Source: a virus. From it: a stretch of 42,754 nt of DNA. The translations under genes were made by a program, and so were the position numbers. The DNA is taken from positions 1-42,754 of the IMG/VR virus record IMGVR_UViG_3300043403_000222. One strand, 5' to 3'. The notes under the pieces are model-generated. The model had not been told where the DNA came from. It saw nothing but the letters and a program-made list of their open reading frames with translations, and made no database searches. Shown piece after piece: positions 1-35,898 of the stretch. Within the stretch, counting starts at the first letter, position 1; each line of letters begins with the position of its first letter.

Positions 1-1
1 C

Positions 2-508
2 GTTTTTAACTCTGTGCCCTTCCCAGAGGATCGGGAACACATGATGACTATTTTTCAGGCGCTCTGCTGTCGTGGTGCAAAATTGTTCCTCTTAACACTC
101 AAAGACACTCAACTTAAATCAAGCCTTTTCAGTAACCGCCCTGATAAGGTCAGTAGGGAAAGTAGGCTTGTTATGCTTGACTCCGAGCCGGGAACCTTTG
201 TCAGATCTATCCTGACTAGACCCAAGGTGCAAAAATACCACAGCCGCAAAGAGCTGATCGCTCAAGGCAATCGCTATTTCCATCGCACAACCTATAACTC
301 AGCCAGTGGCGGTAGCCACGGAATTGAGTGTGAAGGCAGCCGTGAGATCGACCCAGAAAGATTAGTTCGAGCATTGTTGTTTGAGTTTGACTTGCCATAC
401 CCAAACAACAAAAGAATGGGCTTGCAAGACAAAGCCGTTGCAGCCTTCAGCGCCTATACTGACATCGATTTAGTCTCAGTCCAAAAACACCTTAAGCAGA
501 ATGTCTAA
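2..508 (+). CDS. Hypothetical protein, possibly 5'-truncated
   Basis: I do not recognise this protein. The frame is open from the window edge; the first possible starts are GTG at 14 and ATG at 41, so the true start may lie outside the window. The product is basic at the N-terminus and has a conserved-looking middle (RGAKLFLL, then IECEGSREIDPERLVRALLFE) but no known motif, signal peptide or membrane segment. Its stop overlaps the start of the next gene by 8 nt, so the two are probably translationally coupled. If that neighbour is a small terminase, this gene would belong to a packaging or early module, which is only an inference. Confidence 0.55.
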   Translation, partial: VFNSVPFPEDREHMMTIFQALCCRGAKLFLLTLKDTQLKSSLFSNRPDKVSRESRLVMLDSEPGTFVRSILTRPKVQKYHSRKELIAQGNRYFHRTTYNSASGGSHGIECEGSREIDPERLVRALLFEFDLPYPNNKRMGLQDKAVAAFSAYTDIDLVSVQKHLKQNV

Positions 509-1166
509 GTTGACTCCTAAAGAAGTAGCCACCCGTGAAAACTTTGTTTTGTCGCGGGTGAGAGCAGGACTCTCGCGCAAACAAATCGCGCTGCAAATCA
601 GTGAACAGTTTGGAGTGGGTAGCACAGCAGCCGACGACGTTTATAACACTGTCATCGACGGACTAGCAGAGCGATCGCCTAACGACCTCCGGCGAAACAG
701 AGCAATCATTCTAGAAATGCTGCACTCTCAAGTCAGCTCATATCAAGCTGACCTGGTGGCCGTTCAGACCCAAATCAAAATCAGCCTAGATATACAAGAG
801 CAGCGAGCTTTAATCGCAGAGCAGCTATCTATTGCGACCTTAAGTAAAGACCGCAAAGCCGCCCTCAGAGCCGAGCTAAAAAGTTTACATTCCGTTAGGC
901 CAAACGTCATAACTGGCATGGTTGAAACCAAGGCCAGAGTGAGAACTCAGTTAGTAAGAGCGGTCGCCGAAATTGCTCGTGTTCATGGCCTATATAACGA
1001 GATGCCTCTACTCCAGGCTATCAGCGTTCTAGCTTCCACCGAGCTTCTGCCGCCGATCGTTGCCAGTCAAATGCTAGAAGCGATCGAGGGTATTTCCGAC
1101 TCGATCGAAAGAGCCGTCCAGTCAGAATCAAAACCACTGAACGTACTCGAAGAAGACCTCAACTAG
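501..1166 (+). CDS. HTH plus coiled-coil protein, possible small terminase subunit
   Basis: 221 residues. Residues about 10-50 (RVRAGLSRKQIALQISEQFG) form a helix-turn-helix of the type found at the N-terminus of phage small terminases and other DNA-recognition proteins. Residues about 65-150 are strongly helical and charged, a likely oligomerisation coiled coil. That layout (N-terminal HTH, helical core) fits a terminase small subunit, but there is no diagnostic motif and the large subunit lies over 30 kb away, so the role is tentative. The start overlaps the previous stop by 8 nt. Its end overlaps the convergent repressor gene by 8 nt. An alternative is a generic phage DNA-binding protein. 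Confidence 0.6.
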   Translation: MSKLTPKEVATRENFVLSRVRAGLSRKQIALQISEQFGVGSTAADDVYNTVIDGLAERSPNDLRRNRAIILEMLHSQVSSYQADLVAVQTQIKISLDIQEQRALIAEQLSIATLSKDRKAALRAELKSLHSVRPNVITGMVETKARVRTQLVRAVAEIARVHGLYNEMPLLQAISVLASTELLPPIVASQMLEAIEGISDSIERAVQSESKPLNVLEEDLN

Positions 1167-1521
1167 CGTTAATCAACTTCTGAGCGATTAATAAATTTAG
1201 CTCGCGGAGTTTGCTTTCAGGCAGTGTACTAACCGCCTGTTTCGCTATATCAAAATCTCTCCCAGGCCAAGATTCTTCTTCGACAGTGCCCTCAAGCATT
1301 TGCCACAACTCTGATGTAGTTTTGAGGCCAAGGAACAAAGCGATGGCGGGATGGCGCTCGGTATCAGGCATGGTTTTACCAGATTCCCATGCCTGATAAG
1401 CCCCCCTGGTTACGCCTAGTCTTTCGGCAGCAATGGGCTGACTAATACGCAAGCTTTTCCGTTGAGCAGCTAACAGCCTTCCCAGCGCCTCTCGTTTTTC
1501 GCGCAATGATTTTTCGAGCAT
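1159..1521 (-). CDS. XRE-family transcriptional regulator (repressor candidate)
   Basis: 120 residues. An XRE/Cro-CI helix-turn-helix spans about residues 12-65 (RKSLRISQPIAAERLGVTRGAY, AWESGKTMPD), including the typical recognition helix and the WESGK turn. The rest is a short helical tail without a LexA-like peptidase domain, so a RecA-cleaved repressor is unlikely. It is the only clear leftward gene in the first 5 kb and is divergent from the ribbon-helix-helix and ParB genes. A promoter with TTGACA (1577-1582) and TAGTAT (1553-1558), 18-bp spacer, lies directly upstream. The arrangement fits a lysogeny or immunity repressor; that role is inferred from context. Confidence 0.8.
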   Translation of the reverse strand: MLEKSLREKREALGRLLAAQRKSLRISQPIAAERLGVTRGAYQAWESGKTMPDTERHPAIALFLGLKTTSELWQMLEGTVEEESWPGRDFDIAKQAVSTLPESKLRELNLLIAQKLINAS

Positions 1522-1552
1522 AGTCTGAAGAATGACTCAAGGACATACCACT

Positions 1553-1582
1553 ATACTACTCGCCGTATAAAGCGGGTGTCAA
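1553..1582 (-). promoter_or_regulatory. Leftward promoter of the XRE gene
   Basis: On the minus strand, TTGACA at 1577-1582 (perfect -35) is followed after 18 bp by TAGTAT at 1553-1558. The predicted start is near 1546, about 25 nt upstream of the XRE start codon. No clear Shine-Dalgarno sequence is seen before the ATG. It is divergent from the promoter at 1641-1669. Confidence 0.55.
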
Positions 1583-1640
1583 CAAAGTGTGACCAACAGC
1601 ATTGACAAAGTACATGCAACTGTAGTACCAAATCAACTTG

Positions 1641-1669
1641 TTGACAAAGTAGACTGTACGATTTATCTT
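1641..1669 (+). promoter_or_regulatory. Rightward promoter overlapping a 19-bp inverted repeat
   Basis: A perfect TTGACA (-35) at 1641-1646, a 17-bp spacer and TATCTT (-10) at 1664-1669. The spacer and -10 lie inside the inverted repeat 1647-1688, so a protein bound to the repeat would block RNA polymerase. The predicted start is near 1676, about 20 nt before the ATG at 1696. Confidence 0.6.
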
Positions 1670-1688
1670 TAAATCGTACAGTCTACTT
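1647..1688. repeat. Perfect 19-bp inverted repeat, probable operator
   Basis: Arms at 1647-1665 and 1670-1688 are exact reverse complements separated by TCTT. Each arm carries the AGTAGACTGTACGAT block. The repeat covers the -10 element and early transcribed region of the rightward promoter and ends 7 nt before the small RHH gene. It is best read as the operator of the RHH or XRE protein; a transcript hairpin is a weaker alternative because no T-run follows. Confidence 0.7.
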
Positions 1689-1695
1689 CGGTATT

Positions 1696-1869
1696 ATGAA
1701 AGAAGGCACAACCAAGCTGACGATAACTATTAATGCAAAATTCAAGGAAGACCTCAAAATCTTAGGGATTCGCAAGAGCCTCTCAATGGGAGAGCTGATC
1801 AGCGAAGCTTGCAAAAGTAAGTGGTTCTCTGATACAGGCGACTGTACCGATGCAACAGATCTCAGTTAA
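1696..1869 (+). CDS. Small ribbon-helix-helix DNA-binding protein (57 aa)
   Basis: An ATG at 1696 opens a 57-residue frame ending with TAA at 1867-1869. The sequence begins with a predicted beta strand (TKLTITINAKF), then helix A (KEDLKILGI), a turn and helix B (SLSMGELISEACKS), the Arc/CopG/ParG ribbon-helix-helix pattern. The gene sits directly behind the 19-bp inverted repeat, so autorepression is likely. It is upstream of the ParB-domain gene in the same direction. An RHH protein next to ParB recalls plasmid partition cassettes, but no ParA ATPase is seen. No Shine-Dalgarno sequence precedes the ATG. Confidence 0.65.
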   Translation: MKEGTTKLTITINAKFKEDLKILGIRKSLSMGELISEACKSKWFSDTGDCTDATDLS

Positions 1870-1901
1870 GTCCATGTATTAATCTCCAGCACACTACAAC
1901 C

Positions 1902-3320
1902 ATGCCACTAACAAAGAAAGTATTCTCAAATAGCAAGACAGTAACCTCAAAAACCAGCACTCTCGCACTAGAGATTGTGCAGATACCAGTAGCAAAGCTT
2001 CATCCCCATCCTCTCAATCCCCGTCCTTGGTCGGACACGTATCAGTGCCATGTCCACGCTGATAAGGTGGAAGAACTGATTCACAGCATTGGCAGCGGTG
2101 ATTACGACTGGCATGAGCCGATCCACGTAAGGCAATTTGGAGGAGACTCGTATCAAATCCTTGCGGGTCATCACCGCTACTGCGCGATGGTTGCTTTGAA
2201 TAAAAAAGAGGTTCCTTGTCTAATCCTTGAAAACATTGATGACGCAGAAGCGGCAATCAGACTAGTAGCTCGCCAGGGCAAAGGGGTGGAGCCTTGGGAC
2301 TTAGCTCACCACGCTTACAGTCTCTGCGTCACCGAGCAAATCTGCTCGCAGGTTGATTACGGAGCGAAGACGGGTTATGGAGCGGCGCTTATCAGCAAAT
2401 GGATTCGAGCCGAAGAAATGCGCCAAGCCACGGGCGTTAAGAATCTATCGATTACTAGTTGCGCGATGATATCTCGTGCCCCACAGAATCATTGGCAAAG
2501 CCTAGCCGATCGAGCAGTAGCCGAGAACCTTAGCACCAGAGACTTAGATAGCTTGGTGGCAGTCGCTCAAGGAAAGGCTCCAGCCAGCACTCACACCCCA
2601 TCTATTCAGACCGTATCTGAGCCTGACTCACCAGAGCCATCGAAGACGGTAGAGATGGAGCAAACTATTACGGTACACAAAGCGATTCCGGCTCCACCTC
2701 CGATCGGTTTGTTCCAGCCAGTTGGCCACCAAACTAATCTCAAGAGATGGGACAACCCGGTTGGTGGAAGCTTTGATTTGGTTATCGCCGATCGGTCCAC
2801 ACTCAGAGAAGAACCAGACGAGGCTTTTCGAGTGGTGGGGGAATTACTAAATCCCTTGACTGGACGACTCGTTGTGGTCTGCGAGCCGCGCCATACTTTT
2901 ACAACCCTGAAGGCAGCCGAGTACGGCAAGCTGCATTTAGAGCAGAAGCTGGTCTGGGTGCGTGGCGATGGTGAACATGATGAAATCGAGGCGGGGCGCT
3001 GGCCAAACAACTATCGAGACATCTTGGTTCTAAATATCCAAGAACCAGCGCATTTCAATGGCAAAGAAGCTGCGAGGCATTTCAGTATATCTGCCAGCGA
3101 TATTTTAAAGCTAGCTGCCAGTCCTAATGGGGGCATTAGCCAAACCCTTGCTGAGTTACTGCTTCGCACCTACGCTCCAGACAATGCCCAAGTCTTGCTA
3201 CCAGCAGCGTTCGAGGCACACGCCATAATTGCAGCCCAGCGACTGAATCATCATGTCACTTGGCTGGAGGCATCTCCACCGCTGTTTGAGTCGATCGAGA
3301 GGGCATTGCCATCATGGTAG
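1902..3320 (+). CDS. ParB/Srx-domain protein fused to a degenerate DNA methyltransferase fold
   Basis: 472 residues. Residues about 25-125 are a ParB/sulfiredoxin nuclease-like domain (HPLNPRPW; AGHHRYCAM is the GHxR box). A Pro/Thr-rich linker follows (about 220-265). Residues about 280-470 follow the order of an N4/N6 DNA methyltransferase: FDLVIADRS stands where FDLVxxDPPY is expected, and near the C-terminus VLLPAAFEAHAIIAAQRL stands where VLDPFxGSGTTxxAAxxL is expected. Both catalytic (DPPY) and SAM-binding (FxGSG) signatures are lost, so the domain is probably catalytically dead and may be a DNA-recognition or structural module. ParB-methyltransferase fusions are known in phages and plasmids; the decay is seen directly here. 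It overlaps the next gene by 7 nt. Confidence 0.75.
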   Translation: MPLTKKVFSNSKTVTSKTSTLALEIVQIPVAKLHPHPLNPRPWSDTYQCHVHADKVEELIHSIGSGDYDWHEPIHVRQFGGDSYQILAGHHRYCAMVALNKKEVPCLILENIDDAEAAIRLVARQGKGVEPWDLAHHAYSLCVTEQICSQVDYGAKTGYGAALISKWIRAEEMRQATGVKNLSITSCAMISRAPQNHWQSLADRAVAENLSTRDLDSLVAVAQGKAPASTHTPSIQTVSEPDSPEPSKTVEMEQTITVHKAIPAPPPIGLFQPVGHQTNLKRWDNPVGGSFDLVIADRSTLREEPDEAFRVVGELLNPLTGRLVVVCEPRHTFTTLKAAEYGKLHLEQKLVWVRGDGEHDEIEAGRWPNNYRDILVLNIQEPAHFNGKEAARHFSISASDILKLAASPNGGISQTLAELLLRTYAPDNAQVLLPAAFEAHAIIAAQRLNHHVTWLEASPPLFESIERALPSW

Positions 3321-3640
3321 CTACCGAACTACAAAGTGTTAGTCGAATCAACGTAATAGCGCTCAGCCTATTGCGGTATTTGACACTAAAGAACGAGCCG
3401 GTATCAGCCGCTCAGCTCCATTTAGAATGGTCATTCTGTAATGTCTCTGAACAGTGGGACATGAACGATGGCAGCATCCGCCAATTGCTTACCACGATGA
3501 CCAGTAATGGACTGCTCGAAGTGACCACTAGAGAAAAGGAAAAGCTTTATCAAGTAGCCGCTGGAGGCTATCGACTGATGAACGATTTCCTAGAGATCGA
3601 TGCCAATATTCTCGCCAAGAAATGGAAGATTAAACCATGA
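3314..3640 (+). CDS. Winged-helix-like small DNA-binding protein
   Basis: 108 residues, overlapping the ParB fusion gene by 7 nt and the next gene by 4 nt (ATGA). The predicted helix-helix-wing layout, with IRQLLTTMTSNGLLEV followed by a YQVAAGGYRLM strand region, resembles winged helix proteins of the MarR/PadR sort, where the 'L...NGLLE...' helix-turn precedes the wing. No family is assigned with certainty. The context (a run of DNA-binding genes) supports a regulatory role. Confidence 0.6.
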   Translation: MVATELQSVSRINVIALSLLRYLTLKNEPVSAAQLHLEWSFCNVSEQWDMNDGSIRQLLTTMTSNGLLEVTTREKEKLYQVAAGGYRLMNDFLEIDANILAKKWKIKP

Positions 3641-3954
3641 TCACTAAAGCTCCCTTTAAGCCCAAGCCTTGGAAGATGATTACGAGCAGCTACACTGCTG
3701 TCGCTGGCGATCGACTAATTCTAGAGCCGCAGTCTTCCACTACTGTGATTACTACTGACTCAAGCCCAAGCATGGGCGACGAAATCACGGTGATAAGAAT
3801 TGGCGCGATTATGACAATCCAATTCGATTTACAGGGTAAGAAACTAAACGGTGTAGTTCCCTCGAACGTGAGCTACACCGTTGGCAAAGTAGACACTCTT
3901 TTGTACACAGGCAGCACTATTGGGTGGGTATCTTTAAATGGATTCATCGTCTAA
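3637..3954 (+). CDS. Small beta-rich protein resembling a tail-fibre tip domain
   Basis: 105 residues. The sequence AVAGDRLILE, ITTDSSPSMGDEITVI, NVSYTVGKVDTLLYTGSTIGWV follows the pattern of the short beta domain often found in phage tail fibres (YTAxAGDxxxVDTSAG..., ...GDxVxIxDA..., ...vtlvYdGtgW). Here it is free-standing, without a fibre shaft, in a run of regulatory genes. It overlaps its neighbours on both sides (4 nt and 17 nt), so it is part of the operon. It might be a decoration or receptor-binding protein; I cannot tell from sequence. Confidence 0.5.
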   Translation: MITKAPFKPKPWKMITSSYTAVAGDRLILEPQSSTTVITTDSSPSMGDEITVIRIGAIMTIQFDLQGKKLNGVVPSNVSYTVGKVDTLLYTGSTIGWVSLNGFIV

Positions 3955-4264
3955 GGTGCGAGAACTGGAACTAACAGTGCAGCGGCTATGGCAACGAGTC
4001 GATGCGCTGGAAGCTCATGCCAAGCCATCGGCTAAAGGAGAATGGCTGACCCCGGCCAAGGCTGCCGAAGCTAGCGGCGGGCGATATAGCGAATATCTGA
4101 TACGCGCTCGTATCGACAGAGCCATTGAATCACCTGTTAGCACTCGGTTAATTGCCGGAAAGCATTACAGCAAAACTCGAATCGGTGAATCTCGTTGGCA
4201 GTACAAGGTTTACTGGCCAGCGTTTGACGACTTATTGCAACAAGAAAGTACTTTGGAGAACTGA
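3938..4264 (+). CDS. Excisionase-like or MerR-like small DNA-binding protein
   Basis: 108 residues. An N-terminal coiled coil (VRELELTVQRLWQRVDALE, residues 6-24) is followed by a putative winged helix: WLTPAKAAEASGGRYSEYLIR, then AGKHYSKTRIGESRWQYKVY and a closing helix FDDLLQQES. A helix-turn-helix followed by a wing with RWQYKV is common in excisionase and phage Alp-type regulators. Proximity to the integrase (about 1 kb) makes an excisionase role attractive but unproven. It starts within the previous gene and abuts the next (stop TGA 4262-4264, next start 4265). Confidence 0.5.
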   Translation: MDSSSKVRELELTVQRLWQRVDALEAHAKPSAKGEWLTPAKAAEASGGRYSEYLIRARIDRAIESPVSTRLIAGKHYSKTRIGESRWQYKVYWPAFDDLLQQESTLEN

Positions 4265-4714
4265 TTGAAACGGCAACCAACAGATCAAGAAACGGCGGCG
4301 CTACTTGAAATGCACGAAAACGGCAAATCCATGAATGCCATGCGCCTCTCTTTTAACTGCTCAAAAGAGACTCTAGTGCAGTGGTTCGAGCTACTGGGAC
4401 TAGAGCCGATCGGCACTACTAAAAAGCTGCGTACCACTGATTTGGCGACAAACGAAGAAGCAGTTTTTCGCAAGTATTACGCCACCATGCCCACAGTGAG
4501 AGAAGTCACCAATAGATACGATATTAGTAGGAGAACGCTGAATCGATGGCTAGAAAAACTTCACCTTGAGAAGCACTGCTCTCAGGCTAGGAGCCAGGAA
4601 ACCACAGTGAGTCATCAAAGCGATTTGGTCAAAGACGAGAAGTATGTTTACGTTGAGTCGATCGCCCAACGATTCCACCGACAGGGGCTAGTGAAGCTCA
4701 ATCCATACAGATGA
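4265..4714 (+). CDS. Protein with two helix-turn-helix segments
   Basis: 149 residues from a TTG start directly after the previous stop. Two HTH-like segments are visible: ALLEMHENGKSMNAMRLSFN...TLVQWFELLGL (about 11-45) and VREVTNRYDISRRTLNRWLEKL (about 76-98), as in resolvase-type and transposase-type DNA-recognition domains. No catalytic domain is present. It is probably a phage regulator or DNA-structuring protein. It overlaps the next gene by 4 nt. Confidence 0.6.
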   Translation: MKRQPTDQETAALLEMHENGKSMNAMRLSFNCSKETLVQWFELLGLEPIGTTKKLRTTDLATNEEAVFRKYYATMPTVREVTNRYDISRRTLNRWLEKLHLEKHCSQARSQETTVSHQSDLVKDEKYVYVESIAQRFHRQGLVKLNPYR

Positions 4715-4926
4715 TTCGCCCAGGCAACAAAGTTGAAACTTTTCACCCACTCAGCGGTCAACGCTTTGTGGGTTTCGTTGACCTAATCAAAGACTGTACT
4801 CCGACGACCAGCGGCGTTCGTGACGCAGAGCCTGTGTTCAAAGCGTTAGTGAGATTGGTAGACAAAGAGGGTGAGTCAATAGCGACCGAACTAATCTCCG
4901 TTGAGCTGCTGGAATTAATCGATTAA
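4711..4926 (+). CDS. Hypothetical small protein (beta-rich)
   Basis: 71 residues, overlapping the previous gene by 4 nt (ATGA). Strand-rich sequence (KVETFHPLSGQRFVGFVDLI, VFKALVRLVDKEGE) with the look of a small SH3-like or 'modifier' barrel; no recognised family. It is the last gene of the overlapping operon, and a palindrome follows 6 nt after its stop. Confidence 0.5.
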   Translation: MIRPGNKVETFHPLSGQRFVGFVDLIKDCTPTTSGVRDAEPVFKALVRLVDKEGESIATELISVELLELID

Positions 4927-4932
4927 CAAAAA

Positions 4933-4944
4933 CTACGCGCGTAG
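4933..4944. repeat. Dispersed palindrome, copy 1 of 3
   Basis: The core CTACGCGCGTAG, followed by ATTT, lies 6 nt after a stop codon and 7 nt before the next start. It matches the longer, perfect copies at 27463-27484 and 38925-38946, except that the base left of the core is A, so only 12 bp are perfectly palindromic here. Confidence 0.75.
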
Positions 4945-4951
4945 ATTTCTT

Positions 4952-5137
4952 ATGAGGTATCCAAATCTGCATACTTGGCAAAAACGGCCAATCGGCAATA
5001 TTTGTGTGTGCTGTGGCCGATCGGTCCAAATCACGCCAGAGATGAAAAATGTCTATTTGCTCACGATCGGGAGTGCAGTCTCATGGTCACACCGAAGCTG
5101 CTGGGACGAAGGGCGACCCCCAAGTCACTCGGTCTGA
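4952..5137 (+). CDS. Small cysteine-containing hypothetical protein
   Basis: 61 residues starting just after palindrome copy 1. It contains CVCCGRSVQITP and a later SHRSCWDEG, three or four cysteines plus histidine that could bind zinc. No Shine-Dalgarno sequence is evident. The 3' end overlaps the convergent integrase gene by 13 nt. It may be a real small gene or a chance frame; the cysteine spacing and operon position are the only support. Confidence 0.4.
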   Translation: MRYPNLHTWQKRPIGNICVCCGRSVQITPEMKNVYLLTIGSAVSWSHRSCWDEGRPPSHSV

Positions 5138-6249
5138 TCCAGTGCCTGAGCTTGGCTATTTCGCAACTGGCGAAAGTGTTCTTTGGTCAGAAAGCGATTG
5201 TAGGTAGAGGTATGAACCTCTACAGAATGCCCCATAAACTTAGCGGCTAGGCGCACGTCTAACCCAGCAACAATCGTGTGCCAAGCGTAAAGATGGCGCA
5301 GGTCGTAGAGATTAAAAGGCAGACCCAGGCGAGTCAGTTTGGTACGGAAGCTGGCAGTCTGAGTTTTGACCGAAGCGCCACGAGACTTGAAGATTACCGG
5401 TTCCCGAGTCCCCAGATTAAAGGTGTCAAACAACTCGATCGGGTAGGGGTAGGTAACGCGCCACTCACCGAGCTTTGAGCTGTAGACCGACAATTCCTTC
5501 TCGGTTCTGAGGTTAGCAAAATCGCAGAATTGAGCGCCTTCGCCTGGGCGCAAACCAAAAGCGGCTCTGATGGCGTACTCGAACTGCACCGATTCTGGCA
5601 ACCTCTGATGCCACTCAACCACGGTGGCAAGATCAGGCAAGTCTCGTTGAAGCACTTCGCCGCTGCGGTAATTGCTTTTAAGAGCCAGCAGAGGTTTATG
5701 GTCAAGCTCAGCAAGCATGGCCAATTTGGAGTACGCCATAACCGATCGAGTACGAGACTTGGTGCCAGCCTGGGTATTGAGAATGTGCTTCTTAAGGAGT
5801 TCGATCGACAGCGGTGCCGATTCAGGCAGTAATCGATAGGGGTAGCCGTAGTCGGCCATCCAGTTAATCAAGGTGTCTGGGGTTTCCTCTCGCTTGTCAA
5901 AATACTCTGCTCTGGCTAATGCGGCGAATTCACCAACGGTACAAGGCTGAAAAGTTCGGACAGCTTCCTCGATCGGAGTCGGCAGATAGTCAGCCCAATC
6001 AAACCTGTCTAGAGCTAAATCAGTGGTGATGGCGATCGACTTCTCCAGGGCTGCTCGCAAACCTCTGACCGTCGCCTTCATTTTGAGAGGCAACTCTCGG
6101 CTCTTAGCCTTGGTTTCGCCGGGTTTGGGTGGAAAAGTTGCCCTCAAATATAGAGAGCCGGTCACGCGCCGAATTGTGCCCTGCCCATAACCCGCTCTTA
6201 GCTTTTTGTTGATCTTCTGAATCTCTTTGTCCACAAGGGAATAATCCAT
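5125..6249 (-). CDS. int: Tyrosine-family site-specific integrase
   Basis: 374 residues from ATG at 6249, preceded by GAGG with good spacing; the frame is open further upstream through the tRNA fragment, but that extension is not protein-like. The N-terminal part (TIRRVTGSLYLRATFPPKPGE) is typical of cyanobacterial integrases, followed by a core-binding domain. Catalytic residues are visible: R234 in FGLRPGE, R318-H319 in DLRH, H341 in MGHS and the nucleophile Y350 in STYNRF. It catalyses recombination between attP and a host tRNA-Phe gene, whose 3' half lies 145 bp upstream. The conserved direct repeat 6253-6265 overlaps its ribosome-binding region, so Int may regulate itself. Confidence 0.95.
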   Translation of the reverse strand: MDYSLVDKEIQKINKKLRAGYGQGTIRRVTGSLYLRATFPPKPGETKAKSRELPLKMKATVRGLRAALEKSIAITTDLALDRFDWADYLPTPIEEAVRTFQPCTVGEFAALARAEYFDKREETPDTLINWMADYGYPYRLLPESAPLSIELLKKHILNTQAGTKSRTRSVMAYSKLAMLAELDHKPLLALKSNYRSGEVLQRDLPDLATVVEWHQRLPESVQFEYAIRAAFGLRPGEGAQFCDFANLRTEKELSVYSSKLGEWRVTYPYPIELFDTFNLGTREPVIFKSRGASVKTQTASFRTKLTRLGLPFNLYDLRHLYAWHTIVAGLDVRLAAKFMGHSVEVHTSTYNRFLTKEHFRQLRNSQAQALDQTE

Positions 6250-6252
6250 TTT

Positions 6253-6265
6253 GCCTCTACCAAAA
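6253..6265. repeat. Putative integrase arm-type site, left copy
   Basis: GCCTCTACCAAAA, repeated exactly at 6495-6507 in the same orientation. The two copies flank the tRNA-derived core, which is the geometry of integrase arm sites. The similarity continues weakly beyond the 13 bp (ACTACCAACGCC versus CTTACCATCACC). This copy overlaps the ribosome-binding region of int. Confidence 0.5.
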
Positions 6266-6343
6266 ACACTACCAACGCCTTTTAAGTAATTTAAGTTATT
6301 TAGGCGCAAATTGTTAAAAACAAGAAAAAGAAGCACCAGACCA

Positions 6344-6373
6344 AAAGCCCCACCGGGTAAGGGGTGGGGCTTT
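6344..6373 (-). terminator. Intrinsic terminator hairpin captured with the tRNA-Phe 3' end
   Basis: A perfect 11-bp stem (AAAGCCCCACC at 6344-6354, GGTGGGGCTTT at 6363-6373) with an 8-nt loop. On the minus strand it follows the tRNA 3' end by 20 nt and is followed by T-rich sequence. It is most simply the host tRNA terminator carried in the phage att region, and it also insulates int from upstream transcription. Confidence 0.65.
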
Positions 6374-6393
6374 AAATGGTGATATATGGTGGA

Positions 6394-6440
6394 TGCCAAG
6401 AAGGGGACTTGAACCCCTGACACGAGGATTTTCAGTCCTC
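6394..6440 (-). other. attP core: 3' half of tRNA-Phe(GAA)
   Basis: Read on the minus strand, the segment holds a full anticodon arm (GAGGA, loop CTGAAAA with anticodon GAA complementary to 6431-6433, TCCTC), the variable bases GTGTC, a T-arm (AGGGG-TTCAAGT-CCCCT) and the 3' acceptor strand TCTTGGC plus discriminator A. No D-arm or 5' acceptor strand precedes it. A 3' tRNA half beside an integrase gene is the hallmark of a phage attachment site, since integration rebuilds the host tRNA. No encoded CCA follows (TCCA instead). Confidence 0.85.
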
Positions 6441-6494
6441 GCTTCGTTTGACCCTGATTACTGATGCACACTGACTTCAGTCGATGAAGGTATC

Positions 6495-6507
6495 GCCTCT
6501 ACCAAAA
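6495..6507. repeat. Putative integrase arm-type site, right copy
   Basis: Exact second copy of the 13-bp direct repeat seen at 6253-6265, on the far side of the tRNA-Phe fragment, about 55 bp from the anticodon arm. Confidence 0.5.
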
Positions 6508-6564: not shown

Positions 6565-6599
6565 AAGGCGATGAGCTCACATTTTGAACTCATCGCCTT
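6565..6599 (-). terminator. Hairpin downstream of the leftward gene at 6623-7015
   Basis: An 11-bp perfect stem (AAGGCGATGAG at 6565-6575, CTCATCGCCTT at 6589-6599) with a 13-nt loop, 24 nt past the end of the leftward gene. T-runs are weak on both sides, so termination may be inefficient or bidirectional. Confidence 0.5.
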
Positions 6600-6622: not shown

Positions 6623-7015
6623 TTAACTAGCCAGAGCTGCAACAGGCTCAGACTTCGCTGACTTAGCGGCTTCGACCTTTTTCTTCTCGGCTGGCGGCTC
6701 GGTTGGTTCTGGTTCAGGAATGCCCCCAGCCGATTGATACCTAGCCTGAAAGTGTTGATCGTCGATCAGCATGTAGCCGCGATCGGCTTGAACGACCCAC
6801 TGGCCAGTAGCGACAGGAAATTCACCATACTCGGTTCGGAGGCTGAAGCCGTTTTCGGGATTCTCTAAGTCAGTTGGAAAGATCGCCCCTACCTGCCGGA
6901 TGTCGGCCTCGCTATTTTCACGCGCCCAGTCTGGCCAATGTTTGGAGCTGGTCTGCGCTTCTGCGGTCATCTGAAATGCTTCGACGTATTCGGGGATGGT
7001 TTGGTATTTAGCCAT
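6623..7015 (-). CDS. Conserved small phage protein (GDW...FxxxYQ family)
   Basis: 130 residues. YQTIPEYVEAFQMT at the start and FPVATGQWVVQADRGYMLIDDQHFQARYQ further on match a small domain common in phage genomes, usually written as a start like YRTKPVxIEAIQW and an end like GDWVIxGVxGEFYPCKPDIFxxTY. The function is unknown. The C-terminal 30 residues are a charged, Pro/Glu/Lys-rich tail (PEPEPTEPPAEKKKVEAAK). It is divergent from the tail-fibre gene at 7112. Confidence 0.7.
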   Translation of the reverse strand: MAKYQTIPEYVEAFQMTAEAQTSSKHWPDWARENSEADIRQVGAIFPTDLENPENGFSLRTEYGEFPVATGQWVVQADRGYMLIDDQHFQARYQSAGGIPEPEPTEPPAEKKKVEAAKSAKSEPVAALAS

Positions 7016-12208: not shown

Positions 12209-12604
12209 TTAATAAAGATCAGGAGCGGTTTTGATAATCGGCGTTTCCCCGGCCTTGTATCCGTCAGCCAAGCCCTCGATTAGTAGCTGTTTGCTGACAA
12301 GATATGATGGCAATATTCCGTTATTTGCGGCAATAATTCTATCTGCTGACTCTTCTGCTCGTTGTCGTATCTCTTCGCTTGTGATTGAGGCGAAATATCG
12401 CGTCCCAGGCGGAGGCGCAAAGTCCGGGAGCCTTCGATCCTTGTGCCAATCGACATGGCTAATCATAGTCTTGCCGTCTTTGGCGAGGACGCAGAAAGGC
12501 GTTACACCATCGCGGCTGTTCCAAATCTTTTCGCTTACAAGTCCGTCCTCTGACCTGTAGTTCATGAGGCAAAAAGCCTCTCTATGCCGATAAACAGTTT
12601 TCAC
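12209..12604 (-). CDS. Conserved phage protein of unknown function (WNSRDGVTPF family)
   Basis: 131 residues from GTG at 12604, which has AGGG upstream and overlaps the methyltransferase gene by 23 nt; ATG at 12565 is an alternative. EKIWNSRDGVTPFCVLAKDG, MISHVDWHKDRRLPDFAPPPGTRYFAS matches a small phage protein found in many dsDNA phages (WIWNSRDGVTPF..., ...HVdWxxDxxxPdhxPxxGDRxFvd), function unknown. The helical C-terminus (EEIRQRAEESADRIIAAN) fits the family. Confidence 0.65.
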   Translation of the reverse strand: MKTVYRHREAFCLMNYRSEDGLVSEKIWNSRDGVTPFCVLAKDGKTMISHVDWHKDRRLPDFAPPPGTRYFASITSEEIRQRAEESADRIIAANNGILPSYLVSKQLLIEGLADGYKAGETPIIKTAPDLY

Positions 12605-13589
12605 GTTTAATCCCTGTTGGTTGTTGTATTTGATGGTCGAAAGATTCGGCGATTCGTTGCATCGCCAATGGTGGCACCCCGTTCCCCAGCACCCGCCAGC
12701 ACTCATGCCACTGGGCATTCTCGGGAAACTGATAGCTATCGGGGACGCTCATCAGCCTTGCTACTGCCCTGATGTTGAGGCTCCGACAAATGCCGTCTTG
12801 GGTGATGACATCAATGACCTTCGTGCGATTACCAGAGTCATTGTCGCCACCCTTACTGGCCAGTATCGTCCACGAAGGCTGATGGGCTTCCCTAATAGCC
12901 GCGAACTTGCCAGGGTAAACCCCGACGCGCTGAATCAATATCGGGAAAGCTGGCTCTGCTCGCCTGATAGCCTTCATCTGTTTTTCTGTCACCCTGCTTA
13001 CATCGAAGTCGTCAAGAATGTCGTGGAGAACACTCTCCCAGCCCTCGAAAGACATCTGCAAGAGATTAGACTGCTCTCGGTGAGTATATGAGAGATAGAG
13101 CGGCGATATCGGCTCGAAGGCCGCTCTCAAGATTAGGCGCTTTCGATTCTGGGGTACTCCAAATTGGGCGAAATCTGGAGTGTTGATCGTGTGATACGGG
13201 TAGATGCCTTCAACGGCTTTCACCAATAGCTTGAAGGAGTCAGAGCCTTTGTAGCCGGGAACGTTCTCGATCGACAGCCGCGCCGGTTGATGCCACCTGA
13301 TGAACTCAGTAGACCTCTCCGCGAGCGCCGTGTCTTCAACCTTCTCGCCCTTTTTGGGGTTGGCCAAGGAGAAGCGCTGACAGGGATTTGACAGATGCAA
13401 GTAATCGGGAGTGGGGTAGTCGCCCGGTTGAGCGGCCAGTAAATCTTTGAGCGGGTTGTGACCAAAGTTTAGTTGGTAGATTTCTGCTGCTGGTTGGTGA
13501 TACTCGATACCCCAGACGGGACGGTAGCCAGCGGCGGCGAGGCCAAGGTCGGCGAGGCCACCGCCACTGAATAATGTTGCTGAGATCAT
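12582..13589 (-). CDS. DNA cytosine-5 methyltransferase
   Basis: 335 residues, the usual size for a phage C5 methyltransferase. Motifs run in order: I (FSGGG, 7-11), IV with the catalytic cysteine (SNPCQRFS, Cys70), VI (IENV, 107-110), VIII (GVPQNRKR, 144-151) and X (GNGVPP, from about 302), with a short target-recognition region between VIII and X. It methylates cytosine C5 in DNA, probably to shield phage DNA from host restriction; HIP1-type sites are a possible target but this cannot be read from sequence. No partner restriction enzyme lies next to it. It overlaps the previous gene by 4 nt. Confidence 0.9.
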   Translation of the reverse strand: MISATLFSGGGLADLGLAAAGYRPVWGIEYHQPAAEIYQLNFGHNPLKDLLAAQPGDYPTPDYLHLSNPCQRFSLANPKKGEKVEDTALAERSTEFIRWHQPARLSIENVPGYKGSDSFKLLVKAVEGIYPYHTINTPDFAQFGVPQNRKRLILRAAFEPISPLYLSYTHREQSNLLQMSFEGWESVLHDILDDFDVSRVTEKQMKAIRRAEPAFPILIQRVGVYPGKFAAIREAHQPSWTILASKGGDNDSGNRTKVIDVITQDGICRSLNIRAVARLMSVPDSYQFPENAQWHECWRVLGNGVPPLAMQRIAESFDHQIQQPTGIKRENCLSA

Positions 13590-19140: not shown

Positions 19141-22100
19141 ATGGATAGCAAAGTCGCCTTATTACTGATTGCTGACGACAGCCAGCTCATCCCCCAAATG
19201 GTGCGCTCTGGAGAAAAGGGCGGGGTTTTGATGGGTAATGCCGTCGCCACCAAGATGAAGGTGACGATCGAGCGGGATATGTCTGGGTGGAAGATGCCCG
19301 GAACTAATTCGATTGGTCAAGGTATTGGTCAAGGTATTGGGCAGGGAATTCTCACTTCCATCACCAGAGTCTTAGCCGGAGGAGCTGGCGCGATCGGAGG
19401 ACTACTCGGCGACTCTCTGAAGGTTGGGGGCGACTTTCAGAAAACAGAAGTAGCCTTTACCACGTTCCTTGGTTCTGCCAAGGATGCCAAGAAGTTGCTA
19501 GGCGAAATTCAGCAATTTGCGGCTAAGACTCCTTTTGAGCTGCCGGAAGTAACTGGCTCTGCTCGATCGCTCATGGCCTATGGCATCGCCTCCAAGGATG
19601 TGATTAGCACCCTGAAAATGGTGGGCGATGTGGCGGCGGGAACCGGCCAGCCACTCGAAGACATGGCGCAAATCTTTGGCAAGGTGCGGTCTAACGGGCG
19701 GATGATGAGCCGTGAGCTACACGAGTTCACTAACCGAGGAGTGCCGCTGATTGCTGAATTGGCCAAGCAATTCGGATTATCAGAAGGCGAAATCCACAAA
19801 CTCGTTGAAACTGGCGCGGTGGGATTCCCTGAGCTAGAAAAAGCCTTCAAAGCCATTACTGGCGAGGGTGGTAGATTTTTTAACTTGATGGAGGCACAGT
19901 CAGCCACCATCCCCGGCAAGATTTCCAACATCAATGACCAATTCACTTTGATGAAAATCAAGGTGTTTGAAGCATTCAAGCCAGCCACCAATACGATTGT
20001 TGATATTCTGGGCAGCTCCTTAATCGCGCTGCAAAATAATGATGTGCTTTTTGATAAGTTGACTGCCCAGGCTCAAGCATTCTCAGACGAACTCAGTAAA
20101 AACCCAGCCGTGGCCGAGGGGATCAATAAGGCGATCGCCGACCTGACTGAGCAGAGTTTTAAGGCGCTGCTTGAATCCGCTGAAGGACTCACCAACTACC
20201 TGAAGGAAAACCCCAACGCAATTGCCGATGCTGCTGCCAACCTGCAAATGTTCCTGGGCGTTATGGGTAAGGTGGTGGAATCGGTAGGCATGGCGATCGA
20301 TGGCTGGACAAAACTAGCGGCGTTGATTGAGGGCGTGGATGCTCATTCGGCTCGGGGGACTCTGACCCCAGCCGACCAGAAAGAGGTTGATCGAAGAATG
20401 GCCGCAATGGGCAAAACTCAGACTGGAATAAACGTCTCGAACAAAGGAGTAGAGTTCGGAGAATTTTATAACACTCCAAAAGGACTGGAGTCCAAGCAAG
20501 ATGCCTATGTACGCCACGCTGCTGACGTTCGAGCAGAGCGAAACAAAAAGATTAACCCCGACTATGAAGATCATTCTGATGTGACTTTGAAGCGAGGCAT
20601 TGATGCGGAGGTTGAGCGGCGGATGGCCGCAATGGGCAAGACCCAGACAGGGTTAGAATTCGATAGCAAGAAGGGATTCCGATTCGGCGAATTCTACAAG
20701 ACCGCCCAAGGCACAGAAACAAAGCAGGAAGCTGAATCGCGTATCCGCTCTCAGGTAGAAGGCGAATTTAGCGACAGGAAATTCGCCTATGAGTCTCGGT
20801 TGAAAACGGCTGCTGACAAAAAGAAAACCGATGCGGCTGCTGCGAATAAGAAGCCTGAGATATATGGCCCACCCGCGCCAGTTAAACCCCCAGACTCAAA
20901 AGAAGACGAGGAGCTGAGGCACCGCCAGCAGAAAGAGATTCGAGCTGCTCAAGCTGAATATAAAAAAGACCGGCTAAAGCGCCAGCGAGATAAATTCTCT
21001 GCTGGTTCCGTCGAGCGCATTGGCCTTGACGAGCAAATCGAAGTTGGCGACATTCGGGAAAAGCACTCGGAGAAGATCGTTAAGCTGCGCGAGGATTTAG
21101 CCAAATACGAGAAGGCTGCTCAGCTCAAGATCAAGAAAGGTGAGAAGGGCGGCGTAGATTATGGCGCGGCAATTGCCCGTACTCGCCAACTCCTTACTCT
21201 GGAGCAGCGCAACCTAAATGAAGAGATCGCTGCCAGTGGCGAGAAATATCGAGATCAACGCAGGGAAGCATCACGCGAAGCGCTTAAAGTTAACAGTAGA
21301 AATCGGGAAGCGCTGCGTGTTGCTCAGGTATCTGCTGGCACCACCAAATTAGTTAGTCAGGCTGACGCAGCGGTGCAGGGTAGCCAGCGCCAACAGGCAA
21401 TCCAGTACTCAATCTCCACAAAGAATGTGAATGAAAAGTACGACGCTGGCCGATTTGAACAACAGCAAAGGCTGCTCGAATTACAGCAAAAGCAAGCCGA
21501 CAAACTGCGATCAGGAGAAAGAGGCGGGGTTGACTACAATGCTGCGATTGCTGGGCAGCGAGAAATCATGCGGCTTTCTGAGCAGCAGCGGCGAGATGAG
21601 TTGGCTGGTGTTGCGGCCAAGCGGCGACTAGAATTACAGGCCATCGAAGATCGCCAACTCATGGAGAGACGTGGTGCAACCCGACAGACCGAGCGCCAAG
21701 TAACGGGTGCCAACCAATCGGTGTCTCAGGCTGGCTATCAACTGCAAGAGACTCAAACAAGCGACAGCCGTGCTAGGCGCAATTTGGAGTACACCCGCAA
21801 CCAAGAAGCTATCAATAACAAATTTGATGAGCAGCGCAAGACCAACCTCCAGGCAATTGAGGATGCCAAATTAGCTCAAGAACAGCAAGTCCGCAGTGGT
21901 GATACTGGAGGCATTGATTATGATGCTCAAATAAATGGCCTTGCAATGGTCATCAACAAAAACGAGGAGCTGCGGCAATCTGAACTCCAACTCCTTGCCG
22001 TGCAGAAAATACAGGCTGATACTGTTGCAGAAAGAGAAGCCGCTGATCGGCGGCGCACAGCAACTAGAAGTCGCCGCGATGAACTGGCTGCCAGTCAAAC

Positions 22101-23778
22101 CAGCAAGCGGACTACTGAATTAGAAGGTCGGAAGGTTGGAGTGACCGATCCGATTGTCATTGCGGCGATCGACAAGGAAAAAGCCGAAATTGAGAATGAG
22201 GCCAACAAGGTCAGAGAGCTTAACGCCCTGAACGATGCTCTTGCAGACTTGAAAACTCAGCAGCTCCGCAAAGCTGAAAATGCCAAAATCGGTATTAGTG
22301 ACCCAGCCTTGGAGTCGATCGACTTCGAGAAAGAAAGAGAAGCTATTTTGCAGCGACGCAAGGATGTCCTGGCTCGCGCCGAAAGCCAGAAGAATACTAT
22401 TGCTGGCACCTTCCAGGAAACGACCAACACTACTAATCGGGAAGAGAGAATTGCCGCAGACGAAAAAGCTCGAGTTTTGAGAAATGAGTCAATCAGGACT
22501 CAGATTGCTGAGACTTCAGACGAGAGAGTCAAGGTGGCGCTCCAATTTGAGATTGATCGATCTGATTTAGTTGCCCAGGCAGAGGCCGCAAAACGCGATC
22601 TCGAGAAAATTCTAAGGGGCTTGAATAAACGCCAGTCGGAGCTGGCAGACAAAGGGATCGTCGATCCTCAGCTAGACAAGCTCATCAAGGATACCGACAA
22701 AATGTTGGTGACAGTGAGCGAGAATCAAAGAGCTGCTGAGAACCAGTTGGGCAGACAGGCTGCGCTGAATCTAGCCGTAGCTCAGACTACTGAGTATCGA
22801 AAAAAGGTTGACCAGATATCACTGCTGTACACTCCAGGCGTAGATTTGGCCGAGGCTCAGAGCCAGAAATTTACCCAAGAAGGCGAATTCGCCAAAGCCG
22901 CCGTGCCGGGTCGAGCTGCGGCTGTAGGCCGAGAGCAGCTTAGATACAACGACCAGACATCGAGCTTTGCCGATTCTGTGGCTGCTCGGAGAGCAAAAGG
23001 CGAGGTGATCGATGAGAGCCAAGTTCAGGCGACCGTCGATGTGATGGAGCGGTTACACAATTTCAACTTGGAGAATATTGCCACCCAGTTCGACGTGATG
23101 GCAAAGTCTATTAATTCAGCCAACCTCCAGCTCAGAGAAATGAGCCAGAGCCAGACGGGAGATTTCCTGACAGACTTGGTTTCTGGTACCAAGTCTTTTG
23201 ACGACATCTGGAAGTCAACAGTTAACAACGTGATTCAGGGCATTATCAGAATCGCTGTCCAGAAGCAAATCTCAAAGCTCTTCGATGGCGAAGGAGCCAA
23301 AGGCTCTGGAGATGGAATTCTTGGCCAAGCCGTGGGCTTCCTCGGCAAGATATTCAACTTCAATGACGGCGGCGTAATTGGCGGCGGCTCGCCTCAGCCA
23401 GATCTCACCAGGGGGAGTGGACCGATCGCCGAAGCCGCCAGAAAAGAGGGTAATGGCCATCAGCTAATCATGGGCAAGATTGGTGAGCGAGTGCTGAACC
23501 TGCAAGAGACGGCGGAGTATCACCGCATACACCCGAAAGGTATCTTGCAGAACTTTGAGCGAGGCGGCATGATTGGCGGCGCAGCCAATAGCGGCATCGC
23601 TTCTGGCAGTCTTACTGGCTCAGGCTTAAGTCTGGGCGATATGAACGTGAACGTTAAGAGCGAAGGTCGCTCTCAACCAGAGGCCAGCAACCAACTTGGC
23701 TCAAAGCTAAATCAAGTAATTCGGGCTGCCATCGCCGAAGAAACAAGAGCCGGTGGAATTCTAGCCAAGTTTCGTTGA
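19141..23778 (+). CDS. Tail tape measure protein
   Basis: 1545 residues. Residues about 96-290 are the tape measure domain (TEVAFTTFLGSAKDAKKLL, FAAKTPFELPEVTGSARSLM, GKVRSNGRMMSRELHEFTNRG, ATIPGKISNINDQFTLMK). A long coiled-coil central part (about 590-1330) contains repeats: a doubled block RRMAAMGKTQTG...FGEFY near 415 and 495, and three GGVDY/GGIDY...AI motifs near 675, 795 and 920. The C-terminus is Gly-rich with two hydrophobic patches. At about 0.15 nm per residue the tail would be near 230 nm, which indicates a long-tailed siphovirus. A GQGIGQGIGQG run at 60-70 comes from a short tandem DNA repeat. No strong ribosome-binding site is visible. Confidence 0.95.
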   Translation: MDSKVALLLIADDSQLIPQMVRSGEKGGVLMGNAVATKMKVTIERDMSGWKMPGTNSIGQGIGQGIGQGILTSITRVLAGGAGAIGGLLGDSLKVGGDFQKTEVAFTTFLGSAKDAKKLLGEIQQFAAKTPFELPEVTGSARSLMAYGIASKDVISTLKMVGDVAAGTGQPLEDMAQIFGKVRSNGRMMSRELHEFTNRGVPLIAELAKQFGLSEGEIHKLVETGAVGFPELEKAFKAITGEGGRFFNLMEAQSATIPGKISNINDQFTLMKIKVFEAFKPATNTIVDILGSSLIALQNNDVLFDKLTAQAQAFSDELSKNPAVAEGINKAIADLTEQSFKALLESAEGLTNYLKENPNAIADAAANLQMFLGVMGKVVESVGMAIDGWTKLAALIEGVDAHSARGTLTPADQKEVDRRMAAMGKTQTGINVSNKGVEFGEFYNTPKGLESKQDAYVRHAADVRAERNKKINPDYEDHSDVTLKRGIDAEVERRMAAMGKTQTGLEFDSKKGFRFGEFYKTAQGTETKQEAESRIRSQVEGEFSDRKFAYESRLKTAADKKKTDAAAANKKPEIYGPPAPVKPPDSKEDEELRHRQQKEIRAAQAEYKKDRLKRQRDKFSAGSVERIGLDEQIEVGDIREKHSEKIVKLREDLAKYEKAAQLKIKKGEKGGVDYGAAIARTRQLLTLEQRNLNEEIAASGEKYRDQRREASREALKVNSRNREALRVAQVSAGTTKLVSQADAAVQGSQRQQAIQYSISTKNVNEKYDAGRFEQQQRLLELQQKQADKLRSGERGGVDYNAAIAGQREIMRLSEQQRRDELAGVAAKRRLELQAIEDRQLMERRGATRQTERQVTGANQSVSQAGYQLQETQTSDSRARRNLEYTRNQEAINNKFDEQRKTNLQAIEDAKLAQEQQVRSGDTGGIDYDAQINGLAMVINKNEELRQSELQLLAVQKIQADTVAEREAADRRRTATRSRRDELAASQTSKRTTELEGRKVGVTDPIVIAAIDKEKAEIENEANKVRELNALNDALADLKTQQLRKAENAKIGISDPALESIDFEKEREAILQRRKDVLARAESQKNTIAGTFQETTNTTNREERIAADEKARVLRNESIRTQIAETSDERVKVALQFEIDRSDLVAQAEAAKRDLEKILRGLNKRQSELADKGIVDPQLDKLIKDTDKMLVTVSENQRAAENQLGRQAALNLAVAQTTEYRKKVDQISLLYTPGVDLAEAQSQKFTQEGEFAKAAVPGRAAAVGREQLRYNDQTSSFADSVAARRAKGEVIDESQVQATVDVMERLHNFNLENIATQFDVMAKSINSANLQLREMSQSQTGDFLTDLVSGTKSFDDIWKSTVNNVIQGIIRIAVQKQISKLFDGEGAKGSGDGILGQAVGFLGKIFNFNDGGVIGGGSPQPDLTRGSGPIAEAARKEGNGHQLIMGKIGERVLNLQETAEYHRIHPKGILQNFERGGMIGGAANSGIASGSLTGSGLSLGDMNVNVKSEGRSQPEASNQLGSKLNQVIRAAIAEETRAGGILAKFR

Positions 23779-23860
23779 GAATATGATAAAAAGCTTAAAT
23801 TGAGCAGGGGTAAATACCTAAAATGCCTATGATTGTAGTATCCAAATTCAAGTCACCACT

Positions 23861-24121
23861 ATGAACCCCATTGATCCGAGAGAACTTGCCGCATGTCTCC
23901 GGCGATTGGCTGGGACTATTGCTATGATTGAATCCGTCTTCCCTTCGGTGAGAAACAGTGGACATCGATCAAGTCAAGTTACAGGAAATTTACTCCACTC
24001 TTACTCAGTGTCAATCTCTGCTGACCCGCAGCGAATCCCAGGTAGTAGATCTGGAAAAGCGTATTCGGGAATTAGAGCAAGAAGGCGTGAGATTGGATGG
24101 CAAAATCCAACAGATTTATGA
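23861..24121 (+). CDS. Possible small overlapping ORF upstream of the XhlA-like gene
   Basis: 86 residues from ATG at 23861. The first 35 residues (MNPIDPRELAACLRRLAGTI, then AMIESVFPSV) look like a real helical protein, but the rest overlaps the XhlA-like gene in another frame and is Ser/Arg-rich. It may be a short leader gene whose tail is incidental, or the N-terminus of the downstream protein after a frameshift. Low confidence. Confidence 0.3.
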   Translation: MNPIDPRELAACLRRLAGTIAMIESVFPSVRNSGHRSSQVTGNLLHSYSVSISADPQRIPGSRSGKAYSGIRARRREIGWQNPTDL

Positions 24122-24398
24122 TGCTCGGAAAGATTCGGTGCAGCGATTTGACAAATACCAATCAGTGGTCAGCAACGTCCAGACCTTAATGGAATGGAAG
24201 ATTGCTAACGATGCCCGCATGGACAAAATTGCCACAAGTCTTTGGGGCGCAGTAGTTACCGGAATTGTCAGCTTCATTGGATTAACTGTGATGTTTTATC
24301 TCAACAGCACGTCTAAGCCGGTAAAGGCGATCGAGCAGCCTGAAAACCACAAGCCCAAGACAGTAGCATCAGATACTATCAAGCCAAATATTCGGTAA
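23958..24398 (+). CDS. Coiled-coil membrane protein, XhlA-like lysis accessory candidate
   Basis: 146 residues from GTG at 23958. An N-terminal coiled coil (residues 5-50, VDLEKRIRELEQEGVRLDG) is followed by a single membrane segment (about 97-118, LWGAVVTGIVSFIGLTVMFY) and a short charged tail. This layout is that of XhlA-type hemolysin/holin accessory proteins that sit beside holins, and the next gene is a holin candidate. An overlapping frame with a plausible start (ATG 23861) lies just upstream in another frame. Confidence 0.6.
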   Translation: MDIDQVKLQEIYSTLTQCQSLLTRSESQVVDLEKRIRELEQEGVRLDGKIQQIYDARKDSVQRFDKYQSVVSNVQTLMEWKIANDARMDKIATSLWGAVVTGIVSFIGLTVMFYLNSTSKPVKAIEQPENHKPKTVASDTIKPNIR

Positions 24399-24404
24399 AT
24401 CAGA

Positions 24405-24632
24405 ATGCTGGACAAATTTTGGCTGAAGTTTGGGGAAACTCAAAAAATAGGTATGACCAATCTGGGTGCGTATGTAGGCTTTGTGGTTAGCGTCTTAGGG
24501 GTAATGACCAACAGGCATCTATTGCCAGCGGTAACGGCAGACTGGTTGGAGGTAGGCACCGCAATCTCAATCGGCTTGATTGGGCTGGCCGGTGGCCGAT
24601 CGTCAGACCTGAAGGGCAAACAGGGCGACTAG
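24405..24632 (+). CDS. Holin candidate
   Basis: 75 residues with two predicted membrane segments, about 20-35 (LGAYVGFVVSVLGVM) and 48-63 (VGTAISIGLIGLAGG), a charged N-terminus and a Lys-rich C-terminus, which is class II holin topology. It follows the XhlA-like gene by 6 nt. The endolysin lies 15 kb away. Its end overlaps the convergent replication-like gene by 4 nt. Confidence 0.6.
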   Translation: MLDKFWLKFGETQKIGMTNLGAYVGFVVSVLGVMTNRHLLPAVTADWLEVGTAISIGLIGLAGGRSSDLKGKQGD

Positions 24633-26530: not shown

Positions 26531-26570
26531 CTGTTCTCCTGTGGAGCCAGATTAGTGGTTTTACCGATTG

Positions 26571-26646
26571 CCGAAGAAAGAGCGAACTGTTAGTCTTGAA
26601 GGTGATTAATACATGGACTTAGTTTTTTGTTCGCCTCTTTCTTCGG
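26571..26646. promoter_or_regulatory. Inverted repeat in the divergent region between replication-like and K-like genes
   Basis: Arms CCGAAGAAAGAGCGAAC (26571-26587) and GTTCGCCTCTTTCTTCGG (26629-26646) are complementary apart from one inserted base. Between them lies an 18-bp sequence (26604-26621) that occurs in inverted orientation at 1867-1884, upstream of the ParB fusion gene. In both places the 18-mer has the same orientation relative to the gene it precedes. It is probably a shared control site. The rest of 26531-26718 shows no gene. Confidence 0.5.
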
Positions 26647-26718
26647 GAATGGCTTCAGCACTAACTGAGTCCATTTCCTTGTATATATGTAAGTTGACGA
26701 TCCTTATCATAGCTATAC

Positions 26719-27462: not shown

Positions 27463-27484
27463 AAAATCTACGCGCGTAGATTTT
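27463..27484. repeat. Dispersed palindrome, copy 2 of 3
   Basis: A perfect 22-bp palindrome (half-site AAAATCTACGC) that starts right after the stop of the K-like gene and ends just before the ribosome-binding site of the I-like gene (GGGAG at 27486). The T-run on its right side could make it a short terminator. Confidence 0.8.
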
Positions 27485-27495
27485 TGGGAGTAATT

Positions 27496-35897: not shown

Positions 35898-35898
35898 T

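Follow-up and report, generated by a model that had tools for sequence, protein, structure and literature searches.

A tRNA-Phe half beside an integrase gene

The DNA analysed here (the window) is a stretch of 42,754 bases, the full length of the virus record that holds it, and its G+C content is even (47-52%). On the minus strand, the 3' half of a tRNA-Phe(GAA) gene is followed by a terminator-like hairpin and a tyrosine integrase gene, with phage genes on both sides (Table 1). Read from 6440 to 6394, the half has the sequence GAGGACTGAAAATCCTC-GTGTC-AGGGGTTCAAGTCCCCT-TCTTGGCA. The match of this 47-nt half begins exactly with base one of the anticodon stem and runs to the tRNA 3' end. On the 5' side of 6440, neither a D-arm nor a 5' acceptor strand is present, and the sequence there is not tRNA. 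This anatomy confirmed the original prediction of a tRNA-Phe(GAA) 3' half that starts at the anticodon arm and keeps the T-arm and the acceptor 3' strand. The score with the Rfam tRNA model (21.5 bits) was below the cut-off of 29 because the D-arm is absent. The whole window was searched with ARAGORN and no intact tRNA was found; a full tRNA-Phe next to the half, named in advance as a sign against an attP, was thus absent within the window. A shuffled window is expected to hold 0.01 copies of the 22-nt anticodon part (up to 3 mismatches), and the window has one exact copy, so that a chance match was excluded.

Table 1. Features at and around the tRNA-Phe half
Feature	Position	Strand	Evidence or detail
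Phage ParB-like/methyltransferase protein, C-terminal part, far end of integrase side	14..508	+	phrog_5475, E 1.9e-19
Tyrosine integrase, 374 aa, ATG at 6249	5125..6249	-	PHROG integrase families, conserved residues
P'-side candidate arm-type site TTTTGGTAGAGGC, directly before integrase start codon	6253..6265	-
Intrinsic-terminator-like hairpin, then TTTT overlapping arm end	6344..6373	-	11-bp perfect arms, 8-nt loop
attP core, tRNA-Phe(GAA) 3' half	6394..6440	-	sequence anatomy, cyanobacterial tRNA-Phe match, shuffle test
Acceptor strand TCTTGGC and discriminator base A	6401-6394	-
T-arm AGGGG-TTCAAGT-CCCCT	6418-6402	-
Variable region GTGTC	6423-6419	-
Anticodon stem-loop GAGGA-CTGAAAA-TCCTC, anticodon GAA	6440-6424	-
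Predicted strand-exchange (overlap) region CTGAAAA, anticodon loop	6429..6435	-	att pairs of relatives
P-side candidate arm-type site TTTTGGTAGAGGC, 54 bp before core	6495..6507	-
Next P-side gene, 130 aa, phage family of unknown function	6623..7015	-	phrog_419, E 4.9e-6
Tail fibre-like gene, P-side phage DNA	7112..7957	+	phrog_8469, E 4.6e-7

A perfect 11-bp terminator-like hairpin had been predicted 20 bp past the tRNA half and was found there. Its arms (AAAGCCCCACC, 6373-6363, and GGTGGGGCTTT, 6354-6344) are paired at 11 of 11 positions, with a folding energy of -20 kcal/mol. The hairpin is well placed to stop transcription of a rebuilt tRNA before the integrase gene, which starts 94 bp further on the same strand; the GTG start proposed by the ORF caller, at 6471, would run through the attP core. 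Another hairpin (6565-6599, 15 bp, 93% complementary) lies on the P side just past the 6623-7015 gene, and is possibly the terminator of that gene.

The integrase matched two PHROG integrase families (E 1.9e-6 and 7.8e-6). Compared alone with Pfam it scored 20.6 bits, below the cut-off of 27.1, and 9 of 13 members of its family matched Phage_integrase. Residues R234, K259, Y315, R318, H341 and Y350 were invariant in an alignment of 13 homologues, and we take R234, K259, R318, H341 and Y350 to be the catalytic residues. Residue 315, the first of box II, was Tyr in all 13 aligned homologues; in box II of tyrosine recombinases (YxLRH) the matching position is usually His.

The core is flanked by two copies of the 13-bp sequence TTTTGGTAGAGGC, with no further copy in the window within one mismatch. 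This repeat was longer than any in 450 shuffles (maximum 12), and longer than 71 of 72 mismatched pairs when flanks were compared. Among the related elements described below, matched flank repeats of their own were found for G020 (21), G173 (15) and G011 (11), at 56-86 bp before the core, and those of the other elements were not clearly above background. The two 13-bp copies are candidate arm-type integrase sites, and the presence of an element-specific repeat on each side suggests that both flanks of the core belong to one phage.

The protein encoded at 14-508 has relatives in Aeromonas phage HJ05, Gordonia phage Evaa and Pseudomonas phage PaMx31, and a ParB-like gene (1902-3320) is also located on the integrase side. 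No match to a chromosomal family in Pfam was obtained for the left-side proteins tested. Host genes on one side of the site had been named as another sign against an attP, and no chromosomal-looking gene was recognised among the flanking genes tested.

Some other properties of the genome were observed. Three ParB-like proteins and the C-terminal part of a ParB/methyltransferase protein are encoded by this one phage (14-508, 1902-3320, 16394-17335 and 18473-19111). The order of the virion genes is unusual, with tape measure and tail assembly genes on the plus strand (19141-28056), then terminase and portal genes on the minus strand (33964-38092), then a GpJ-like tail tip gene on the plus strand (38970-41243), about 11 kb away from the other tail genes. 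Two DNA methyltransferases are encoded at 12582-13589 and 30277-31140, one of them C5-cytosine and one of Type II/orphan type, and no restriction partner was recognised among the proteins tested.

Rebuilt tRNA and integrase relatives

When the host 5' half GCCGGGATAGCTCAGTTGGTAGAGCA was joined in silico to the window 3' half, the chimera was scored by ARAGORN as a complete tRNA-Phe(gaa). Two G-U pairs are present in the acceptor stem of the chimera when the 5' half is GCCGGGA, which is common in cyanobacteria. The window's own upstream sequence joined to the 3' half was not scored as a tRNA.

The best homologues of the integrase in 386 cyanobacterial genomes were approximately 29-37% identical. 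The integrase formed a long branch in the tree, with no more than 36-37% identity to any relative found, and as its placement was not supported, no conclusion is drawn on whether tRNA-Phe is the target of all of its nearest relatives. The integrase loci were scanned for tRNAs with approximately 1.5 kb of flanking sequence. An intact tRNA directly 5' of the integrase, in the orientation seen in the window, was found for tRNA-Phe (G011 and G072), tRNA-Ala, tRNA-Met (twice), tRNA-Thr and tRNA-Cys. The integrase faced the opposite way beside tRNA-Phe (G173, G306 and G141) and tRNA-Trp, and many other scanned loci had no adjacent tRNA. Six regions of approximately 18-25 kb had an intact tRNA-Phe as one boundary and, as the other, a displaced 3' half in the same orientation (G011, 18.0 kb; G072, 19.5 kb; G173, 20.4 kb; G141, 25.4 kb; G020, 24.7 kb; Laspinema, 22.0 kb). 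The nearest integrase homologue found in G020 is located at a tRNA-Met elsewhere in that genome, so the G020 element at tRNA-Phe either relies on a different enzyme or no longer has an integrase of its own.

In these relatives, the identity shared by the two copies always takes in CTGAAAATCC, and the preceding 5' stem arm may differ; TAAAA, TTGGG, GAGTC and TTGGA are examples of the bases that stand for GAGGA. Since the copies share CTGAAAATCC and may differ before it, the exchange was placed within the anticodon loop or immediately 3' to the loop. By analogy with the relatives, the crossover of the window phage is predicted to occur in the anticodon loop, and the arms of the anticodon stem would be the core half-sites of the integrase. 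In a first step, the integrase would bring the phage core together with its counterpart in the host tRNA-Phe gene. The strands would then be exchanged in the CTGAAAA loop, with the stem as flanking inverted half-sites, and the phage would be inserted. The host 5' half would be joined to the phage 3' half, leaving a working tRNA-Phe, and the host's own 3' half would be displaced to the far end of the prophage. Transcription of the rebuilt tRNA would be ended by the phage-borne terminator ahead of the integrase gene.

Single-sequence searches of IMG/VR detected no close relatives of the integrase, portal or terminase, and no integrase matches were found among GenBank phages. An alignment of the integrase family found 195 relatives in IMG/VR, and the 80 viral loci kept were covered by a structural scan for tRNA 3' halves. 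Orphan tRNA-Pro(TGG) 3' halves were detected in four of them (L321, L340, L353 and L359), on the integrase strand and approximately 180-600 bp upstream of the integrase match; the remaining four hits look like intact tRNAs. Judged by these loci, the layout of the window is common to some other viruses with the same integrase family. Most of the 80 loci had no such half, which indicates that other sites or other tRNA subsites are used.

It is possible, though rather unlikely, that the tRNA half and the terminator travel as one insulated unit in elements with this integrase family. If so, a terminator placed after the rebuilt tRNA and ahead of an integrase gene on the same strand would keep constant tRNA expression from switching on excision. 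The arrangements in the window and in G072 agree with this idea. A hairpin after the intact tRNA was present in G072 and in one Laspinema element (strong), and none was found in G011 by the same scan. Several restored tRNA copies failed the scan, and displaced host tRNA-Phe 3' halves often carry a terminator. When the corresponding window sequence was shuffled 500 times, 37 of the shuffled versions passed the scan (these are pass counts, not scores). As 49 of 111 ordinary tRNA-Phe genes also passed, the terminator was not upheld as a general part of the att unit; insulation of the integrase is plausible but cannot be called a rule. In Nostoc sp. LEGE 06077 (L009, 1224-5416), where tRNA-Phe carries an insertion of 4.1 kb, the terminator is found with the displaced half and is missing from the intact gene.

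Interpretation of the site

Taken together, positions 6253-6507 are very probably the attP of a temperate, siphovirus-like cyanobacterial phage, with its integrase gene (5125-6249) adjoining. The original prediction of an attP rather than a prophage end is supported by the adjoining integrase, the repeat on both sides, the phage genes on both sides, the rebuilt tRNA and the relatives. Weighing against it are the long branch of the integrase, the two G-U pairs in the rebuilt acceptor stem and a search for the exact half in host genomes that gave 44/47 as its best match. On this reading the phage would be able to form lysogens.

A 3' half beside an integrase gene may also originate at the junction of tandem islands, and the direct repeat and the gene content were needed to favour the attP of a single phage. 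In such a junction at tRNA-Phe, the half would be a displaced one, with one element at 6441-42754 and another, bearing the integrase, at 1-6343. An arrangement of this kind is seen in Laspinema, where a displaced 3' half at 173.2 kb is followed by an integrase and the intact tRNA is 22 kb away, and displaced host copies often have a terminator. However, of the two copies of the 13-bp repeat that flank the core, one stands close to it and the other adjoins the integrase gene, as would be the case if both arms belonged to one element, the G+C content is even and the record is a virus record, and we consider a tandem junction improbable. Even less probable is the end of an integrated prophage, with a displaced host 3' half and the host chromosome on the 1-6343 side; the fragment with its terminator resembles displaced host copies, but the supposed chromosome side holds the integrase, the ParB-like gene and the phage ParB/methyltransferase gene, and its tested proteins match no chromosomal Pfam family. 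That the tRNA-derived fragment is present by chance or serves another use, with lysogeny relying on a phage-encoded tRNA, is scarcely credible: phages with very short cores and a full tRNA do exist (PMC10865867), but here the core is complete at 47 nt, the window is without a full tRNA and an integrase adjoins.

The Laspinema palackyanum D2a locus (L123, L217 and L218; 173.2 and 195.2 kb) is itself of note as an apparent case of tandem islands at tRNA-Phe. The displaced 3' half carries a native-looking terminator and is followed by a second integrase, and no third tRNA-Phe half was detected within the following 33 kb.

Under the attP reading, a cyanobacterial tRNA-Phe gene with the same 3' half was sought. 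The exact 47-nt half was absent from the GTDB and IMG/VR contigs searched, and the 22-nt anticodon part was identical to that of many cyanobacterial tRNA-Phe genes. A relaxed pattern retrieved 118 stretches, nearly all of them bearing cyanobacterial names, with an identical anticodon part and overall matches of up to 42/47. Matches of 44/47 (3 mismatches allowed) were found in 6 of 42 genomes from the order of Leptolyngbyaceae cyanobacterium CSU_1_3 (G004), and two of the three differences together convert the outer base pair of the T-stem from A-T to C-G. No match with 3 or fewer mismatches was found in the 386 genomes sampled across the phylum, which held some members of the same order, or in 389 genomes of the order of Laspinema. 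Judged by this short sequence, the host may tentatively be placed in or near the order of Leptolyngbyaceae CSU_1_3. The proposed search of cyanobacterial genomes thus yielded close tRNA-Phe halves and no exact one; the proposal that the host site is a tRNA-Phe gene is supported by relatives integrated there, and the host itself was narrowed tentatively to the level of order, without the exact gene. A tRNA-Phe of cyanobacterial type is also present in a MAG named uncultured Lactobacillus (L071), which is likely to be mis-named or a mixed bin.

No prophage of the window phage was found in a tRNA-Phe gene when G284, the cyanobacterial genome with the nearest relative of the portal (37% identical), was examined. 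The contig with the portal relative has no tRNA-Phe, the integrase homologue of G284 is located at tRNA-Cys, and no matches to window proteins were detected beside its tRNA-Phe or displaced half.

With these results, an integration site that can be tested is proposed for a temperate cyanophage not placed by other means. The integrase family is common to free cyanophages and to cyanobacterial islands at tRNA genes (Phe, Pro, Cys, Met, Ala, Thr and Trp), and att/int modules of this kind could serve as integration tools in cyanobacteria.

Comparison with known tRNA integration sites

That a virus carries the second half of a host tRNA gene with a stop signal is a well-known strategy, textbook in principle, and the attP described here belongs to the already known anticodon-loop class of tRNA attP sites; its mechanism is not novel. 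In Islander, 2083 sites among 3919 islands are centred on the anticodon ('A' subsite; PMC4383910). As in these sites, the tRNA fragment in the window is a 3' one that begins with the anticodon arm, a tyrosine integrase adjoins it and the target gene would be rebuilt, but the window is a free phage record rather than a lysogen and concerns the tRNA-Phe of a cyanobacterium. The G011 and G072 islands resemble the window in their integrases (approximately 30-33% identical), which have the same orientation 3' of tRNA-Phe, in the crossover region and in having a direct repeat at each end, of 9-11 bp and little above background. They differ in their size (18-19.5 kb), in their primase/helicase genes and in having few clear virion genes among ten proteins tested.

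The Prochlorococcus siphovirus P-SS2 has a putative attP next to int, a match of 53 bp, of which 36 bp belong to the host tRNA-Met (PMC2784084). Like the window phage, it is a cyanosiphovirus with a tRNA-containing site beside int. The tRNA differs (Met rather than Phe), a host sequence match was found for P-SS2 and not for the window, and the portal genes are only about 28% identical.

Mycobacteriophage attP cores of 30-45 bp also include the 3' half of a tRNA (PMC10865867). The tRNA-dependent form of lysogeny is characterised by a short core (approximately 10 bp) that does not rebuild the tRNA, together with a phage-encoded tRNA of the same isotype (PMC10865867); the window differs in both respects, with a complete 47-nt half and no tRNA gene. 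An example of the 30-45 bp cores is Boilgate at attB-4, where the 43-bp core spans the 3' half of tRNA-Lys and a functional tRNA is rebuilt at attL (PMC10865867). There too the core is the 3' half, although the host is different, the tRNA is tRNA-Lys and the phage is unrelated.
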